41,618 bases of DNA, taken from positions 1 to 41,618 of IMG/VR virus record IMGVR_UViG_3300032180_000019. One strand, written 5' to 3'. The notes below the pieces were generated by a model. That model saw only the letters and a list, made by a program, of their open reading frames with translations. It did no database searches and was not told where the DNA came from. The stretch's first letter is position 1. The number at the start of each line of letters is the position of its first letter. Positions 11,404-41,618 of the stretch are shown here, in pieces. This DNA comes from a virus. Both the position numbers and the translations under genes were made by a program.

Positions 11404-11420
11404 AAAGGGGGCGTCAAATG
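11404..11420 (+). promoter_or_regulatory. Ribosome site aaagggggcgtcaaatg
   Basis: Exact 17-base match to 6717-6733. Decides ATG 11,418 over the in-frame GTG at 11,400. Confidence 0.6.
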
Positions 11421-12218
11421 GATGATGAAGCAAAGACAGCATTAATGAGGATCGCCGCCATTGTGGTTGGCGTTGTTGTGCTCATTTTGTTCATGGGCTC
11501 TTGGTATGTCGTGAACCCCGGAGAGGTCGCCGTGACGTTCAGCCGGGTCTCTGGGAACACGGCTTCCTCGCCACAGGGGCTGCACCTCAAGACGCCTCTT
11601 CTGACGGGTGTCGAGAAGTTCGACGTGAAGACCCAGCGCGTGGACATCAAGTCGGAATCCGCGTCGAAGGACCTTCAGAAGGTGGACGTCGACGTGGTCC
11701 TGAACTACCACCTGGCCTATGACAAGGTCAACGAGCTGTATGTGAAGGTGGGGCCGGACTATCCGGCAAAAGTCATCGAGCCGGCCGTTCACGAGGCGGT
11801 GAAGGCTTCCGCCGCGCAGCTCCCGGTGGAAGAAATCATCGTCAAGCGTGAAACCCTGCGCTCAAACATAGAGAGCATGCTGACAGCCAGGTTGGCGAGC
11901 TACAATATCACCCTGGAGTCCGTCAACCTGGTGGACATCACCTTCGACCCGGAGTTCAACAAGGTCGTCGAGGAAAAACAGGTCGAAGAACAGCGAATCA
12001 AGACGGCCCAGTATCAGCGGATGCAGGCCGAGGAAAAGAAAAAGCAGACGATCTTGGAAGCTGAGGCGGAGGCGGAAAAACAACGGCTCATGAAAATGAC
12101 CGTGACCAAGGACATCATTGCGCTGGAGTGGATCAAAAAATGGGATGGGAAACTTCCTGTGACGTCCTTGGGCGATAAGTCGGTGATCATGGTCCAGCCG
12201 AAGGATTCTGGGCAATGA
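11418..12218 (+). CDS. SPFH/prohibitin-family membrane protein
   Basis: 266 aa. An N-terminal TM helix at residues ~9-31 (IAAIVVGVVVLILFMGSWYV) is followed by VNPGEVAVTFSRVSG, the start of an SPFH (band 7) domain to about residue 170. A long charged coiled coil (EEKQVEEQRIKTAQYQRMQA, EKKKQTILEAEAEAEKQRL) completes the HflC/prohibitin layout. Cellular members form membrane rings that hold proteases such as FtsH; HflKC affects lambda's lysogeny choice. In a phage it may change membrane proteolysis or block superinfection (inference). It is directly coupled to the prepilin mimic. Confidence 0.9.
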   Translation: MDDEAKTALMRIAAIVVGVVVLILFMGSWYVVNPGEVAVTFSRVSGNTASSPQGLHLKTPLLTGVEKFDVKTQRVDIKSESASKDLQKVDVDVVLNYHLAYDKVNELYVKVGPDYPAKVIEPAVHEAVKASAAQLPVEEIIVKRETLRSNIESMLTARLASYNITLESVNLVDITFDPEFNKVVEEKQVEEQRIKTAQYQRMQAEEKKKQTILEAEAEAEKQRLMKMTVTKDIIALEWIKKWDGKLPVTSLGDKSVIMVQPKDSGQ

Positions 12219-12301
12219 GGAAGAAAGGATTCACGCTGATCGAACTGATGATAGTGATCGCTATCATAGGCATAAAAGATAAATATGCCATTCAGCACTA
12301 A
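12215..12301 (+). CDS. 28-aa prepilin mimic (type III signal sequence only)
   Basis: The ATG overlaps the SPFH stop (ATGA), with aagga about 10 bases upstream. Sequence: basic RKKG, then FTLIELMIVIAIIGI, then IKDKYAIQH. That is an almost perfect type IV prepilin leader: cleavage expected between Gly5 and Phe6, with the invariant Glu at +5 of the mature end, but no pilin body. Prepilin peptidase (PilD) would probably process it and the short helix could enter or jam pilus/T2SS assembly. Reading frame, overlap and motif agree. Function as pilus interference or superinfection exclusion is inference. Confidence 0.75.
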   Translation: MRKKGFTLIELMIVIAIIGIKDKYAIQH

Positions 12302-12311
12302 AGGAGACCAA

Positions 12312-12530
12312 ATGAAAGACAGCATCAAGCAGTTGAAGAAGGACCTGAAGGTCCAGTTGCGCGCCGTGGCGCTCATCCAGTCGGCCATCGCCAAGCTGAG
12401 CGGCGCGAAGACGCGCAAGCGTCGGAAGGCCAAGGCGGAGAAAGCCGTCGAAGCCGAAGAGCCGAAGAAAGAAGCTCGCAAACGCGGGCGCCCGGCCAAG
12501 ACCGAACAGGCCGTTGCAGTCGCGGCCTAA
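12312..12530 (+). CDS. Lys/Ala-rich AT-hook-like protein
   Basis: 72 aa. ATG 12,312 has aaggag 5 bases upstream. Helical N-terminal half (KQLKKDLKVQLRAVALIQSA), then low-complexity Lys/Ala/Glu and one KRGRPAK motif, which matches the AT-hook core RGRP. Probably a small nucleoid-like DNA-binding protein, similar to histone H1-like tails seen in phages and bacteria. Function otherwise unknown. Confidence 0.65.
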   Translation: MKDSIKQLKKDLKVQLRAVALIQSAIAKLSGAKTRKRRKAKAEKAVEAEEPKKEARKRGRPAKTEQAVAVAA

Positions 12531-14079: not shown

Positions 14080-14423
14080 CGAAACCCCTCCGTGGTAGAC
14101 CTGCCCAACCTCGTGTTTTGGCTCATGATCTGCTTCACTCTCTCCAGCCCTCTCATCGCCTCCGGATTCTGCGGGTTGATCTGAAGGGCCGTCTGCCAAA
14201 ATTGGCCGGCTTTCATGTAGTCGCTCGACATGAGTGCCTGGATGGCCGCCCGGTTCATTTGCTGGTCAGGAGACAACTGCGGCATTTGTTGGCCCTGCAT
14301 AGGTTGCTGTGCCTGCTGCGGAGGCCCCATTTGGATCCCCTGCATTTGTGAGAGGTAGTCAGGCATCCCTTGCGCGTCTCCCGGGTCCATCCTGTTCTGT
14401 CGAAGCAGGTCCACGGCGTTCAT
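14076..14423 (-). CDS. Gln-rich TPR-like virion or assembly protein
   Basis: 115 aa, coupled by ATGA. Gln/Met/Pro-rich middle (MGPPQQAQQPMQGQQMPQ) followed by one TPR-type repeat (MKAGQFWQTALQINPQNPEA). Found between internal virion genes and lysis genes, so a structural or assembly role is likely. Overlap links it to the upstream ATP-grasp gene. Confidence 0.6.
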   Translation of the reverse strand: MNAVDLLRQNRMDPGDAQGMPDYLSQMQGIQMGPPQQAQQPMQGQQMPQLSPDQQMNRAAIQALMSSDYMKAGQFWQTALQINPQNPEAMRGLERVKQIMSQNTRLGRSTTEGFR

Positions 14424-15742
14424 TTGTCTCCTCCAGGGTTTGGAAGGTCATATCCCCATTCCCGCATTTGTTTGATGCCCTTCCATGCCCGTTCCGCCCC
14501 GTCGATGAACCGGCCCATCTTGTTGGGCACTTCCACCTTCTCAAACACGTCCTGAGCTGCCTTCCACGCCGACTGGAGAGTCCTGCCGGGACCCAAGCAC
14601 TCGCCCACGATTCCGTTGACCCCGGCCGTCACCAGGCGCCCTTTCTCATCTTTCATGGCGTCTATAGGAAGCCACTGTCTATCCACTTCGGGGGCCTTAA
14701 TTCTCTGCGCCGCCGTTGCTTCATAAATTGTTTTTTCTGTCTCGGGATCATCTGGAAGCTCAAGTGGGTACGGCGGGATGCTGATTTTGAGCGCCGCGCC
14801 CCAGGAGCTTTTGACGGGGATACGGGATATCTTTCCGTGGGCGATGTCGTGGAGAAAGTCAGCGATTCCACCGCCAATGGCGGCTGCCCAGGCGTAGATG
14901 GCTGAGTACCCAAGTCGAACTGTCCATTCCAGGCCGTAAGGCTCATGGTCTTTGTCGGAGACGATGCAATTGATGTCGAGGGGGCCTGTCCACTTTTCTT
15001 TTTCCATGATGGGGAAGACTTTGGCGATTGTTCGCTCAACCATTTTCGGCATGAGTCCCCGATAAGGGAATACAATTGATGTTTCGCATCCAGTATTAGG
15101 ACCAAGATCTCCGGGCATGAACTTTTTCGTCTCGAAAGTGCTGTTGAACGGCTGGACAGGTTTGCCTTGCGAGAACCAGACTTCCGTCGAGATTTCGACA
15201 CCTTTCACCACCTCTTGCAGGACGAATTTCGTCCCCGGCTTTATAAGCTTCATTTCCTTCTGATAGTCGATGTAGTCCAGCATGTCCTTCTCGTCCTTGG
15301 CCACGTAGCTGGACGCGGCCGATACGTTGCCGTCCATCTTGATGGCGTAGGCGGCGGGAAACTTCTTGACGTGGGCGCGAGCTTCTTCCACGTTGCTAAA
15401 GTTCGAGGTCTTGGGAATCTTGATCCCCGCGTCCTCCATCATCTTGATCCCGAACGCCCTGTCCAGCTCCATCTTGTCCGCCAGCCCGCAGGCGCAGCAC
15501 ACAGCCAGGCCCGCTTTCTTGAGCCTGTCGGCCAGGTCGCCGTCCCCTTCCCGGTCAAACAGGATGAAGTCCGGCTTCTCCTTGACGCCTTCCACCATGC
15601 TGGAGACCTGGGGAACGATATTCTTCATCAGCTCCCGGCAGGTCTTCTCCTTGATAAACCAGGAGACCTTGTGGCCCTCTTTCTGAAAGATCTGCGCCAG
15701 ACCGGCGGAATCTCCTGTCGCGGAGTGAATCAGAATCTTCAT
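14420..15742 (-). CDS. ATP-grasp enzyme resembling phosphoribosylamine-glycine ligase (PurD-like)
   Basis: 440 aa, close to PurD length. Order: N-terminal Rossmann-like domain (ILIHSATGDSAGLAQI), a lid/ATP region (KFPAAYAIKMDGN), GTKFVLQEVVKGVEISTEVW matching the ATP-grasp EE strand, and GLEWTVRLGYSA matching the metal-binding EfN.R.Gdpe motif of PurD. It may ligate an amine to a carboxylate; the natural substrate is unknown. Tightly coupled to internal virion genes, not to purine genes, so a modification of a virion component or nucleotide is possible. Confidence 0.75.
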   Translation of the reverse strand: MKILIHSATGDSAGLAQIFQKEGHKVSWFIKEKTCRELMKNIVPQVSSMVEGVKEKPDFILFDREGDGDLADRLKKAGLAVCCACGLADKMELDRAFGIKMMEDAGIKIPKTSNFSNVEEARAHVKKFPAAYAIKMDGNVSAASSYVAKDEKDMLDYIDYQKEMKLIKPGTKFVLQEVVKGVEISTEVWFSQGKPVQPFNSTFETKKFMPGDLGPNTGCETSIVFPYRGLMPKMVERTIAKVFPIMEKEKWTGPLDINCIVSDKDHEPYGLEWTVRLGYSAIYAWAAAIGGGIADFLHDIAHGKISRIPVKSSWGAALKISIPPYPLELPDDPETEKTIYEATAAQRIKAPEVDRQWLPIDAMKDEKGRLVTAGVNGIVGECLGPGRTLQSAWKAAQDVFEKVEVPNKMGRFIDGAERAWKGIKQMREWGYDLPNPGGDK

Positions 15743-24898: not shown

Positions 24899-25640
24899 GG
24901 ACAACCTCCTCTACTTTTTCCTCAACCTTATTTTCAGCTTTTTCCTGAACCTTCTTCTTGTGAGACAAATACCGATGATTTCTGAGCGAACTCATGTTTT
25001 TATAAACCTTATTGCAGTCAGGACAGATCGGTTTACCGTTGAACATCTTGACCTTCTGCCTTTCAGCGGGTTCTTCTTCGGGCACCGGCGCTGGTGTTTC
25101 AGGCTGTTCCTCCTCGGCCTCTTCTTGAGCCGCTTCAGCATCAGACGCCTTCGGCGTCGGCGCGCCGGCCTCCCGCTTGCCCTCGGGATGCAAATCGATC
25201 ACAGGAACATCCTCTGCTTCCAGCGTCCAGTTGAGCTGGTCGCCCACGATGGCCGGCTCCATGAACTTGATGCTGGCCGGCCGGAGTTTCTCGATGTATT
25301 TCTCAACCTCTTTCCATTTCTCTTCGCCAGGGCCAGTCGCGCAGTCAATCTTCACGATCTGGATGCTCGACGGAATAAACCGCCGGTCGTGGCGGTAACG
25401 CTCCATGGTCTGAGCCTCATTCAGAGGCTGAACGATTTCATAGACCGTCATCCGTTCAGGAAACTGGGCGCGGATGTCGCGCGGCAAATTCTTTTCGTTG
25501 TCAAACTCAAACGGAGGGCGAAGCACCTTGTGACCCTCGATCTCCTGGGTGTAAAACTCTTCCGGTAAAAAATTAATGCAGATTAGCTTATCCCTCATTT
25601 CCTGATTCTTGATGTGATGATTAACGATCCGAAACAGCAT
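24891..25640 (-). CDS. Protein with C-terminal C2H2 zinc finger
   Basis: 249 aa from ATG 25,640 (aagggggtggag upstream). Residues 1-155 form a mixed alpha/beta domain (QFPERMTVYEIVQPLNEA). An acidic low-complexity linker follows (~165-195), then CPDC-x12-H-x4-H (Cys206, Cys209, His222, His227: CPDCNKVYKNMSSLRNHRYL), a eukaryote-like classical zinc finger, and a coiled Lys/Glu tail. Located at the glycosyltransferase cluster's end. Function unknown. Confidence 0.7.
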   Translation of the reverse strand: MLFRIVNHHIKNQEMRDKLICINFLPEEFYTQEIEGHKVLRPPFEFDNEKNLPRDIRAQFPERMTVYEIVQPLNEAQTMERYRHDRRFIPSSIQIVKIDCATGPGEEKWKEVEKYIEKLRPASIKFMEPAIVGDQLNWTLEAEDVPVIDLHPEGKREAGAPTPKASDAEAAQEEAEEEQPETPAPVPEEEPAERQKVKMFNGKPICPDCNKVYKNMSSLRNHRYLSHKKKVQEKAENKVEEKVEEVVHG

Positions 25641-26565
25641 GCTCCACCCCCTTGTATCCGATTGTCTTTTCCAAAAGCTCCTGCACGCGGTGCATATAGG
25701 TGTGCTTCGCCAAAATCTCTTTCAGCCCTTCTTGGCCGATCCGCGCCCGTTCCTCGTCGTGAGCCAAGAGGTGCTTGGCGATCTCCACGGCCTCGTCCAC
25801 CGACTTGTAGGTCCGATGGTGTTTCCCGTCGACGAAGAGGTCATGGATCGTGGGGATATCCTTCGTCAGGACGCATTTGCCGGTGGCCAGGGACTCAAAG
25901 TTCCGCATGTTGACGTCATCTTTGATGTTGTAGTTGAGGATGAGACGGGCCTGACAAAACTTCTTGGCCGCGTCGTCCATCTCGTTGAACCCCTTGGCCA
26001 CCGGCGTCCGCCACCCCAAATACCAGTTCGGGATTTCCTTGCAGAACCGGTCCAAGATGTCCACCCGTTCCGGGCAGTTCAGGTATCCGATGTGCGCCCA
26101 GTCATATTTCTCGATGATGGGGTACGGCTTATAGACGTCTGGCTCCACCGCGTGGGGCATCCAAAACAGCTTCTTGGGGTCCACGCCGTCCCGGACAAAC
26201 TCGTCCATTGCCCTCTTCTGGTTGCAGAAGACGAAGTCGAACTTCTTAGCCTGGGACAAGCGGTGAGCATACCCCAGATGAGCATCAGAGACGACGTAGG
26301 CGTTTGGGTGGGGATACTCGAAGTCCAGCGGCACACCCAGCGCGTCTTCTCCATGGTCGACCAGAAGATGAAGATCGTATTTCCCGAAGTTCGACGTGTC
26401 TCCGACCGGCCACAAGTGCCGGACGTTTCTCTCCCCGTCCTCCATCTGCGTATCCCCGTTCAAGAGCTTCCGAAGGTTGTAGTTCCAAAAAAGAGGAGGA
26501 CCATCGTTCCGGAACCCCGTCTGAGGAATCACCCAGTAATAAATCGCTACGCGCGGCTTAGACAC
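25621..26565 (-). CDS. CgeB/GT1-like glycosyltransferase
   Basis: 314 aa. Begins RVAIYYWVIPQTGF. A C-terminal Rossmann domain with VNMRNFESLATGKCVLTKDI is the donor-binding E-S-x-A-x-G motif of CgeB/GT4-like transferases, followed by DEAVEIAKHLLAHDEERARI. No signal or TM. Probably transfers sugar to a virion protein or lipid-linked precursor; the sugar is unknown. First downstream of three other transferase genes. Confidence 0.83.
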   Translation of the reverse strand: MSKPRVAIYYWVIPQTGFRNDGPPLFWNYNLRKLLNGDTQMEDGERNVRHLWPVGDTSNFGKYDLHLLVDHGEDALGVPLDFEYPHPNAYVVSDAHLGYAHRLSQAKKFDFVFCNQKRAMDEFVRDGVDPKKLFWMPHAVEPDVYKPYPIIEKYDWAHIGYLNCPERVDILDRFCKEIPNWYLGWRTPVAKGFNEMDDAAKKFCQARLILNYNIKDDVNMRNFESLATGKCVLTKDIPTIHDLFVDGKHHRTYKSVDEAVEIAKHLLAHDEERARIGQEGLKEILAKHTYMHRVQELLEKTIGYKGVEHAVSDR

Positions 26566-27778
26566 GTTTGAACACCCCCACCAAAGAAATACCGTTGCCG
26601 GCGTCTTCCACGCCCACTGTTTCCCAGCCCAGAGATTCCATGAGGTCCTTCACGCTTTCTTTCGTGTAGGCGTGGACGTGCTGAAAGTTCAGCGGGATCG
26701 TGCTCTGAAGGCTCTGGTCCGGGACTGCGACGATGAGCCGACCGCCGGGCTTCAGAGCCTCTTTCCAGTAACCGATGGTCCTCACTGGGTTCAGGCAGTG
26801 CTCCAGGATGTGTCGGGCGATGACCGTGTCGTAGATGGGTTCAACCGGCAACCGTTCCGTCACGTCCGCCACGATGTCAGCCACGGACACAGCGCCACCC
26901 AGGCCGGGCACAGGTTTTCCTTTTTCGATGAAGTCCACGCCGACGGCCGTGTCCACCGTTTTCTGGGCGCCGCAGCCAAGCTCCAGCACCTTTTCTCCCA
27001 CAATGAGGCGTCGGACCAGTTCTCCTTCGATGTCATGGCGATAGATCTGCTCATACCGAGGCTTGGACGGCGTGGTAATGGTCTCCCAGAACGCCTTGAG
27101 CCCGTGCTTGCGGATGAGGGCGTCGTTCGTTTTCTGGGTCATCTCGGCACTGTTCCAGTAGTCTCCGTGCTTACGTGTCCCCGACTTGAACCCGTGATGG
27201 TAGACGAAGGCGTGCCGATCACAGACCAGATACTTGCCCAACTTCCGGAGGCGGATCGAAAGGTCCAGGTCGTCCCCACCAGGCAGGCTGTCGTCCACCC
27301 CACCGGCCGCGTCCAAGTCTTCCCGCCGGACCATCAAACAGAACCCAACAAGAAAGGGAACGATGACGGTTGACTCCTTTGTGGGGGTAAAAATGTTTTG
27401 AGCGCCCATGACCACGTTCGAGGATGGCCCGGCGGCGGCGCACTGAGGGTCCCGAAAATTGGTCAGAAGCTCGTTTATCCACAAAGGCGAACTGAGAGGA
27501 ATGTAGGTGTCGTCGTTCATGAAGACGAGGTAGGGAGCCTTGGAAACGGCCAGCCCGGCCTTGAGACCGCCTTCCCAGCCCAGGTTCTTGCCGGTCTGCA
27601 CGATCTCCACGCGAGGATGCCCTTTCCACTGAGCCACGCTATCCGGATGTCCGTTGTTCACCAGAATGATCCGGAACAGGTCCTCCGTCACGGCGTGGGT
27701 CAAGATGGAAGCCAGACACGGGTTCAGGTATTCCGGCAGGTTCCATGTGACGACGATGATGTCGACGGTGGATGTCAT
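26558..27778 (-). CDS. GT2 glycosyltransferase fused to SAM methyltransferase
   Basis: 406 aa. Residues ~5-215 are a GT2 domain: IIVVTWNLPEYLNPCLASIL start, VFMNDDTYIP (DxD-type), GGDDLDLSIRLRKLGK. Residues ~255-400 form a class I methyltransferase: VLELGCGAQKTVD motif I, ADIVADVTERLP and RHILEHCLNPVRTIGYWKEA. A bifunctional enzyme that adds and then methylates a sugar is the simplest reading (inference). ATGA-coupled to the preceding gene. Confidence 0.86.
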   Translation of the reverse strand: MTSTVDIIVVTWNLPEYLNPCLASILTHAVTEDLFRIILVNNGHPDSVAQWKGHPRVEIVQTGKNLGWEGGLKAGLAVSKAPYLVFMNDDTYIPLSSPLWINELLTNFRDPQCAAAGPSSNVVMGAQNIFTPTKESTVIVPFLVGFCLMVRREDLDAAGGVDDSLPGGDDLDLSIRLRKLGKYLVCDRHAFVYHHGFKSGTRKHGDYWNSAEMTQKTNDALIRKHGLKAFWETITTPSKPRYEQIYRHDIEGELVRRLIVGEKVLELGCGAQKTVDTAVGVDFIEKGKPVPGLGGAVSVADIVADVTERLPVEPIYDTVIARHILEHCLNPVRTIGYWKEALKPGGRLIVAVPDQSLQSTIPLNFQHVHAYTKESVKDLMESLGWETVGVEDAGNGISLVGVFKRV

Positions 27779-28509
27779 ATGTTGTTCACCCACCAGTTGT
27801 AGTCCCGGAACTTGCGATCGGAGCACCGGTAAAGCCTTTCAATGTTCCTGTCCACCAACTCTTGCTTGTTCGGCAACAAGGCGCTCCCTTCATGCACGAT
27901 GGTCAGCTCCTCCACGATGTCGTTGACTTCCACCACTTCAAATCCGCTATGCACGGCTCGGTAAAATAGTTCGGTCTCCCCATCGCCAAAGAGCCTGAAT
28001 GATGGTGAAATGGACCCGAGCCGATTGATGGCGTCCCGGCTCCACATGGTGACGCGGTCCGGACAATACCGAGCCGGCGTCCAGAGCTTGTAGTCGGCCT
28101 TGTTGTCCCACGACTGTCCGGCGCAGGCGGCGCCCGGATAAATTTCAAAGGCCCGCATATATCGATCCAACCATCCTTCACGCACGACCACGTCGCAGGC
28201 CGACAAAACGATGTAGTCGAAGTCCAGGTATAAGAGGGAAAATCCGAACGCCTCCAGGACCCCCTTGTTCTTCGTGCAGACGACCACATCGTCCGTCCGT
28301 TTCCTGAGTTCAGCGAAATAGTCCGGGTCGAACCCGTTGATGCAGTTGTACCAGGCGATGATCTTGTCATCGGCGCCGGACCGTTCCTTGAAACTGTCGA
28401 AGCAGGAGAGAGAGTACCGTTCTCCGACGGTGGCGATCACAACCGCCACCGTCTTCGTCTTTCCGCCCATCGAAGTCTTCATGGGCCTATCAGCCATCGT
28501 CTCGATCAT
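27775..28509 (-). CDS. GT2-type glycosyltransferase
   Basis: 244 aa. VAVVIATVGERYSLSCFDSF begins the nucleotide-binding fold; FDYIVLSACDVVVREGWLDR supplies the acidic metal motif; GDGETELFYRAVHSGFEVVE is the acceptor-side motif. Typical compact GT-A enzyme. Start by ATGA overlap with the next transferase gene. Confidence 0.78.
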   Translation of the reverse strand: MIETMADRPMKTSMGGKTKTVAVVIATVGERYSLSCFDSFKERSGADDKIIAWYNCINGFDPDYFAELRKRTDDVVVCTKNKGVLEAFGFSLLYLDFDYIVLSACDVVVREGWLDRYMRAFEIYPGAACAGQSWDNKADYKLWTPARYCPDRVTMWSRDAINRLGSISPSFRLFGDGETELFYRAVHSGFEVVEVNDIVEELTIVHEGSALLPNKQELVDRNIERLYRCSDRKFRDYNWWVNNI

Positions 28510-29261
28510 CGCGCCAAATCCATCGTCGGATATTTGTGGTATTGCCCGTAGAGCCGGTCCTTTTCTTCAGGGGTCATCTTGTTGTAGGCGTCGGAGTATT
28601 CCTCGGTCACGATCCCGTGGTGGGTCAAGTGTCCCAGCTTGACGGAGGTGTCCATGAAAATCCGCGCGCCGGCTTTCTTGGCCCGGATGCAGAACAGAAC
28701 GTCCTCTCCCGTGCCGTGCTCCCCAAAGAAGATGGGCGCTTCCAGCTTGTCAAAGACTGCCGTCTTAATGAGCACGGCGCCAAACCCCACCGCATCGCAT
28801 TCCACCAGGCTGTTGCGCGGGTAGTTGTACACGGTCTCGTTCTGAAAATAGTCTTTCCCAGACACCTTGTCGTATCCTTCTCGCGTGGCGTAGATCACGG
28901 GCCGGTGCGGCGGGTTCCGGGTGAAGGCCAGGGCCGCGACCACGTCCACGTCATGCTTGGCCAGCCGATAGAACAGGTCCGGCGGGGCTAGCATGTCGTC
29001 GTCGATCATGAACAGGTAATCACACTTGTACTGCCGCGCCAGGGCCGCCAACTGTTCCCGGGCGAACGCCACATGGATCTCCCCGACGTTAAACCAAAAG
29101 AACTCGTACCGAGGGGACGTTCCTTCATTTTTCTGGGCCGTCTCGATGCACCCCATGGTGAAGGCCATGATCATCCGGTCGTGGTAAGACTCGGGCGGGG
29201 TGTGTCCCTTTAGAGGGATTCCCACCGCCACTCGTTTCACCACGACCGGATGATCGCTCAT
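28506..29261 (-). CDS. GT-A glycosyltransferase-like protein
   Basis: 251 aa from ATG 29,261 (ggtgagg upstream). AVGIPLKGHTPPESY opening, then FMIDDDMLAPPDLFYRL with the DDD metal-binding motif and GEDVLFCIRAKKAGARIFMD near the end. The same pattern occurs in phage GT2-like proteins that sit beside capsid genes. Donor and acceptor unknown. Confidence 0.78.
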   Translation of the reverse strand: MSDHPVVVKRVAVGIPLKGHTPPESYHDRMIMAFTMGCIETAQKNEGTSPRYEFFWFNVGEIHVAFAREQLAALARQYKCDYLFMIDDDMLAPPDLFYRLAKHDVDVVAALAFTRNPPHRPVIYATREGYDKVSGKDYFQNETVYNYPRNSLVECDAVGFGAVLIKTAVFDKLEAPIFFGEHGTGEDVLFCIRAKKAGARIFMDTSVKLGHLTHHGIVTEEYSDAYNKMTPEEKDRLYGQYHKYPTMDLAR

Positions 29262-29455
29262 AGCCTCACCAGCCAACGGAACACGTTCCACAAGGTCTCA
29301 TCAGCCAAATGGAACTTGTGCCCGACGCACTTCCCCGTCTCCAGATCCACGCTGGACCGAATCTTCCCGCACTTCGTGCACTGGAACAGCCGGCTCGGCA
29401 TGTTGGGACTCGCCGTGCCGGCGAACTTGTTGAGGAAAGCGTCGAGCCATTCCAT
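29258..29455 (-). CDS. 65-aa zinc-ribbon-like protein
   Basis: FQCTKCGKIRSSVD supplies CxxC and ETGKCVGHKFH a Cys/His pair, forming a likely zinc site in the middle; amphipathic ends. ATGA overlap with the transferase gene. Unknown function. Confidence 0.6.
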   Translation of the reverse strand: MEWLDAFLNKFAGTASPNMPSRLFQCTKCGKIRSSVDLETGKCVGHKFHLADETLWNVFRWLVRL

Positions 29456-41009: not shown

Positions 41010-41618
41010 ATGAAAAAGCTTTTAGCGTTTCATAACGACAAGAAGATCAAAGTAAAGTATCTGACGCGCCTTCGCGACCATGTCAAGGCGGATCGTTTGA
41101 TCCACGGGACCGGATGGGAAGACGGGAAAGGGTGCGCGGTGGGGTGCACATTGGAAAAATATGAGCATTCGGCCTATGAGACAGAGTTAGGCATTCCAAG
41201 GATACTTGCCCATCTGGAGGATAGGATTTTTGAGGGCATGAAAAACGGCGATTCGATGAAATGGCCTATCGAGTTCCTATCCGCCCCGAAGGTGGGAGCT
41301 GACTTGTCTATGATCTGGCCTAAGTTTGCGCTGTGGCTGTTAGGCGACCCTCAGGACGGCGTTATCACGCGATTCGATCATGCCAGATTTCCAGCGTGTG
41401 AAAAGGCCGTCCGAGGCGTGATGGATTTGTATGAGGAGTGGATTGATAGTGGTAATCCTCCCGCCGCCGCCGCCGACGCCGCCGCCGACGCCGACCGATG
41501 GTCCGCCGTCGACGTCGCCGCCGCCGACGCCGCCCGATGGTCCGCCGTCGACGCCGCCGCCGCCGCCGACGCCGCCCGATGGTCCGCCGTCGACGCCGCC
41601 GCCGCCGCCCGACGGTCC
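41010..41618 (+). CDS. Repeat protein with Ala/Asp/Arg/Trp/Ser units, 5' part (runs off the window)
   Basis: 203 codons from ATG 41,010 (aaagga upstream) with no stop. N-terminal domain of about 150 aa (MKKLLAFHNDKKIKVKYLTR, GTGWEDGKGCAVGCTLEKYE, ITRFDHARFPACEKAVRGVM) is the usual head of this phage family. It is followed by units of 13-14 residues around RWSAVD. In-frame joining to bases 1-213 completes a 273-aa protein. Function unknown; repeats probably stack as helices. Confidence 0.75.
   Translation, partial: MKKLLAFHNDKKIKVKYLTRLRDHVKADRLIHGTGWEDGKGCAVGCTLEKYEHSAYETELGIPRILAHLEDRIFEGMKNGDSMKWPIEFLSAPKVGADLSMIWPKFALWLLGDPQDGVITRFDHARFPACEKAVRGVMDLYEEWIDSGNPPAAAADAAADADRWSAVDVAAADAARWSAVDAAAAADAARWSAVDAAAAARRS
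41461..41618. repeat. 39-42-bp tandem repeat, right end of contig
   Basis: Units centred on cgatggtccgccgtcgac recur at about 41,498, 41,534 and 41,576. They match the units at the left end, which explains where the circular assembly was opened. Confidence 0.85.

Follow-up and report, generated by a model that had tools for sequence, protein, structure and literature searches.

A prepilin-leader microprotein frame coupled to an SPFH gene in a temperate phage, and its headless relatives in other phages

We analysed a window of 41,618 bases that constitutes an entire IMG/VR virus record. The phage encodes a terminase, a portal protein, an integrase and an endolysin, and is thus temperate. An identical GC-rich tandem repeat (CCG / CCGACGCCGCCCGACGGTC) is present at both ends of the window (Table 1), which suggests that little of the genome is missing; probably a circular or permuted genome was split open within the repeat. 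No RNA elements or tRNAs were detected in the window. Probable glycosyltransferase genes follow one another in the late region, with half of one product resembling a methyltransferase, and PHROGs backs one of three genes tested as a glycosyltransferase. An ATP-grasp (phosphoribosylglycinamide synthetase-like) protein (Pfam GARS_A, E=7e-14) adjoins the virion genes.

Table 1. Features of the window discussed in the text.
Feature	Position	Strand	Description
GC-rich tandem repeat	1-153 and 41461-41618		identical at both ends
SPFH/Band_7 (HflK/C-, prohibitin-like) membrane protein	GTG 11400 or ATG 11418 to 12218	+	Pfam PF01145 E=5e-33; phrog_200 E=4e-42
Shine-Dalgarno-like GAAGGA	12200-12205	+	within SPFH 3' end, 9 nt 5' of the leader ATG; read from sequence
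Prepilin-leader ORF	12215-12301	+	28 aa, MRKKGFTLIELMIVIAIIGIKDKYAIQH; written at the cleavage site as MRKKG/FTLIELMIVIAIIGIKDKYAIQH
AGGAG, Shine-Dalgarno of next gene	12302-12306		read from sequence
Next gene, Lys/Arg-rich, AT-hook-like GRPAK	12312-12530	+	~72 aa; alternative start 12285
ATP-grasp protein gene	14420-15742
Probable glycosyltransferase genes	25621-29291

The operon of interest encodes, in order, a Sak4-like AAA protein, an SSB-like protein, two small proteins, a 229-aa protein, an SPFH protein with a Band_7 domain after an N-terminal membrane segment, the prepilin-leader ORF and a Lys-rich protein. The leader ORF opens at the first start codon after an in-frame stop, and its ATG shares bases with the SPFH stop codon (TGA, 12216-12218) in an ATGA overlap. 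Its own stop codon (TAA, 12299-12301) adjoins the Shine-Dalgarno sequence of the next gene. Translation signals fix both ends of the frame, so it fills its slot with no spare DNA. This packing is as expected of a real gene in a compact operon. The original prediction of a 28-residue frame overlapping the SPFH gene by ATGA is thereby confirmed at exactly the position given in Table 1.

The frame had also been read as a prepilin leader with Glu at +5 and a Gly/Phe cleavage point, and lacking a pilin body; each of these features is borne out. Residues 1-20 match the Pfam family N_methyl (PF07963; 37.1 bits against a cutoff of 21.2, E=2e-9), which indicates that the leader is not a chance ORF, and six PHROG families that share the leader match the 28-aa ORF with E-values of 2e-7 to 8e-5. 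The N_methyl match and an alignment place in this ORF the basic n-region, Gly-1, Phe+1 and Glu+5 of a class III leader. In pilins, prepilin peptidase cleaves after the Gly, and a docking role of Glu5 is established (PMC10191384). Type IV pilins and minor pilins carry a globular C-terminal head after alpha1; this ORF has only 28 residues and stops eight residues past the N_methyl match, headless as in a mini-prepilin. It also does not resemble one half of a split pilin, in which an adjoining gene would supply a beta-rich head, as its neighbour encodes a Lys/Arg-rich 72-aa protein with a weak AT_hook match (E=0.006, below the cutoff).

A tblastn search with the 28-mer found prepilin leaders in 170 public phage records, whose named hosts include Pseudomonas, Vibrio, Aeromonas, Acinetobacter and Synechococcus. 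The annotated leader proteins are mostly short (Aeh1, 28 aa; PX29, 31 aa; PhiW-14, 44 aa; PAK_P5/Ab06, 59 aa; KVP40, 66 aa; Aes508, 75 aa; Acibel004, 107 aa), and many are headless, with no function assigned. Gly-1, Phe+1, Thr+2 and Glu+5 are invariant in 16 aligned phage leaders with dissimilar tails, although these leaders were picked up through motif similarity and the invariance is a matter of consistency, not proof. Rough dN/dS estimates over 26 leader codons, which describe other phage leaders because no relative with the window's exact frame was found, are 0.07-0.15 in three pairwise comparisons and near 1 in three more; the remaining pairs gave saturated or undefined values. The leader region thus appears to be under purifying selection in the three comparisons with low values. 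Judged by its sequence, the window gene is not unique and appears to be a shortened version of a catalogued but uncharacterised phage class. A literature search yielded no experiment on any phage mini-prepilin and no paper giving these proteins a role.

The leader lies directly 3' of the SPFH gene on the same strand in the window, and further cases turned up beside SPFH genes of other phages. Two unrelated IMG/VR phages have the same ATGA overlap between an SPFH gene and a leader gene (L110, 57 aa; L270, 42 aa). In a third, L066, the SPFH gene is followed by a gene for a 135-aa HExxH protein and then by an 83-aa leader. The leader gene also comes after the SPFH gene in the Aeromonas T4-like phages Aes508, AhFM11 and avDM2, and ORF098c/097c of phage 44RR appear in table rows of a 2006 report as SPFH / N-terminal methylation motif (PMC1524935). 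Across lineages, the SPFH proteins mostly share 17-35% identity (L066-L270, 52%), so the pairing is either old or arose more than once. Two neighbouring genes in these phages merit a separate mention: the HExxH protein of L066 (3594-4001) is membrane-anchored, falls in no Pfam family and overlaps the leader by ATGA, and L110 encodes an AAA ATPase (1455-2891), p97/proteasomal ATPase-like, a few genes 5' of the SPFH-leader pair.

The pairing is far from general. A leader was found nearby in 3 of 65 viral SPFH clusters. Both directly downstream leaders among these lie <100 nt from the SPFH stop, with a chance expectation of ~0.007 per leader that is indicative only, since some scans started from SPFH genes whose leader was known beforehand. 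The phage SPFH protein most similar to the window's (L002, 62%) comes without a leader, the enteric T5-like SPFH phages showed no leader beside SPFH, and the SPFH subfamily of L270 and L066 has a leader at those two loci only. Conversely, in the stretches read, several leader families and many leader phages show no SPFH neighbour. With most SPFH phages lacking a leader and many leader phages lacking a nearby SPFH gene, the leader is best described as an optional accessory. The original interpretation finds partial support: the leader is free of a pilin body, headless or near-headless prepilins turn up repeatedly in phages, and the coupling recurs in several unrelated phages (L110, L270 and the Aeromonas T4-like phages), in a small minority of SPFH clusters. 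Aeromonas phage AS-gz has a different gene where its sister phages have the leader, an 87-aa ORF (L177, 2486-2749) labelled 'glutathionylspermidine synthase' that is likely a fragment or a misannotation.

Among described phages, the closest arrangement is that of 44RR ORF098c/097c (PMC1524935, table), Aes508_087/086, AhFM11 and avDM2, in which an SPFH gene precedes a short headless leader on the same strand. The Aeromonas T4-like leaders (three sequences compared) are 74-78 residues long and have a full-length helix followed by a short tail, unlike the window 28-mer; Aes508 and avDM2 have a gap of ~50-60 nt between the SPFH gene and the leader in place of the ATGA overlap, and the SPFH proteins are ~24% identical to that of the window. 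L110 and L270 share the overlap and have a full-length helix, with SPFH proteins 27-33% identical to the window's. The leader-only prepilins of Aeromonas phages, Aeh1 ORF040c (28 aa) and PX29p038 (31 aa), likewise have no body, but they differ from the window ORF in having a full 24-25-residue helix and lying beside nrdB; the SPFH gene of Aeh1, ORF064c, is located elsewhere. PHROG 13280, 10597 and 11263, phage proteins of 59-72 aa with no assigned function, match the leader (E=2e-7 to 4e-6) and, unlike the window ORF, carry 30-45-residue tails after the helix. A nearly headless pilin, Geobacter PilA-N, is processed and assembled by the type IVa apparatus (PMC6201914). That protein has 61 mature residues and a beta-rich PilA-C partner, whereas the window ORF, with 23 mature residues, is followed by a gene for a Lys-rich protein.

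The nearest counterparts of the window SPFH protein are encoded on chromosomes of Spirochaetes, Omnitrophota and FCPU426 MAGs (51-63% identity), a similarity that hints at the gene donor, which need not be the host. Host searches with the terminase or portal returned remote phages only (for example, portal versus Mx8, 27%). Near relatives were sought by DNA comparison with phages and by scanning IMG/VR with three proteins (the terminase, the Sak4-like AAA protein and the 229-aa neighbour); none emerged, and no relative with the exact 28-aa frame turned up. The bacterial SPFH loci L194, L196 and L197 have ordinary chromosomal surroundings, and a loose leader-motif scan of all 25 bacterial genome SPFH loci detected no leader adjoining SPFH; the sole genuine-looking match, found in L208, belongs to a longer protein of pilin type that is encoded apart from the SPFH gene.

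The window copy differs from its relatives most clearly in its helix. Leader homology breaks off sharply at Ile20, a single residue short of the L-A-S-I segment that is otherwise conserved in the helix, and KDKYAIQH (residues 21-28) stands where the relatives have the second half of their helix. The hydrophobic mature stretch spans 15 residues, against 21-31 in 16 phage relatives, and so falls short of the alpha1N stretch of a mini-prepilin (~21-31 mature residues); the highest hydropathy over 19 residues reaches 1.70, compared with 2.49-3.22 in the 16 others. A 15-residue helix may still insert in the membrane. It is poor for packing into a pilus, so joining the pilus base is less likely for the window copy than for its relatives. 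On the strength of this short helix, the window copy may be truncated or decayed. The main alternative, which we consider a distinct possibility if not a probable one, is that a longer SPFH-coupled mini-prepilin, of the kind found in L270, L110 or L066, lost its end after Ile20 by indel or recombination and left a translated but non-functional stub. The sharp end of homology and the shortened hydrophobic run favour such a loss, as does the gain and loss of the leader among related Aeromonas phages, AS-gz included. A remnant sits less easily with the first 60 nt, which are intact, free of stops and retain all key residues, or with the exact fit of the ORF between two ribosome sites. A reading of the tail as one-base-shifted AIPAL, which would have pointed to a frameshift, is no better than chance, with 8% of random stretches matching it.

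The peptide could instead be a short helix that serves the SPFH cage, in assembly, in control of an FtsH-like protease or in membrane protection, and is prepilin-like by descent with no contact to a pilus. We regard this as improbable. The strict ATGA coupling to SPFH in the window, L110 and L270 is compatible with it, and small single-TM proteins follow SPFH in leaderless phages too (for example, Aeromonas phage 4_4572). A plain anchor, however, needs neither the Glu+5 within the helix nor Gly-1/Phe+1, which are kept equally in SPFH-linked leaders, and in many phages the leader lies away from SPFH. A chance ORF or an assembly artefact, for which the metagenomic origin of the contig and the lack of a near relative found might speak, is highly improbable given the Pfam E-value and the recurrence of the SPFH-leader pair elsewhere, both on other contigs and among isolated phages.

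Our preferred reading, held with somewhat less than even confidence, is that the frame encodes a genuine microprotein of the phage, coupled in translation and belonging to a recurring mini-prepilin class, with a class III signal segment and no pilin head. As the overlap suggests, a ribosome that ends SPFH translation would re-initiate at the ATGA. The peptide would insert N-in in the inner membrane and, from its motif, offer RKKG/FTLIE to the host prepilin peptidase; more speculatively, the phage SPFH scaffold might hold the peptide or its targets in a membrane patch. The helix, cut or uncut, could then be a competitor at either of two sites, the peptidase or the type IV pilus/type II secretion platform. 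Such competition might lower pilus or secretion output, remove the receptor and exclude other phages. Of the mechanisms that we can offer, binding to prepilin peptidase or to the base of the pilus is the best, and we infer it in its entirety.

If the gene works in this way, it would bring about the same result as D3112 Gp05, DMS3 Aqs1 and vB_Pae_QDWS Gp21, namely fewer type IV pili and superinfection exclusion. Gp05 and Aqs1 work by inactivating PilB, and Gp21 reduces the expression of PilA and PilB (PMC11436027). None of the three is described as a prepilin mimic, and since these known proteins act on PilB or on PilA/PilB expression, a mimic would represent a different route. A broader proposal, which we view as rather doubtful, is that several unrelated phage groups independently paired an SPFH scaffold with a free leader, as a two-part module; by capturing the host prepilin peptidase or the type IV filament platform, it would shut off pili in a way unlike that of the PilB-directed proteins. 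Should headless prepilins act on the peptidase or the pilus platform, phages would be using a new means of attack on type IV pili and type II secretion. Such prepilins occur commonly among phages, and databases already list them as families without assigned function. Their recurrent pairing with SPFH is the most useful lead, a concrete and testable hint of function, and the cultured phages 44RR, Aes508, Aeh1, KVP40 and PAK_P5 offer systems in which the role of the leader can be tested.

Several longer phage proteins also carry the leader. A family of 75-93-aa phage prepilins (L046, 3995-4231; L061, 4001-4282; L078, 3995-4279; L081, 3992-4282; L084; L085; L091, 4001-4276) combines a full leader with a strongly conserved Cys-bracketed tail, NGMTExRCIxGYKFVxGxxGQARQxLDEFGKGxxC, for which an AlphaFold model predicts, at low confidence (pTM 0.33), a helix and a possible beta-hairpin. 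Unrelated longer leaders (L025, L065, Aes508 and AhFM11) have a looser C-x2-G...C tail. Finally, Pseudomonas phage F10 encodes a 210-aa prepilin-type protein (L193, 1492-2124) between the major tail protein and tape measure genes, an odd site for a pilin gene.
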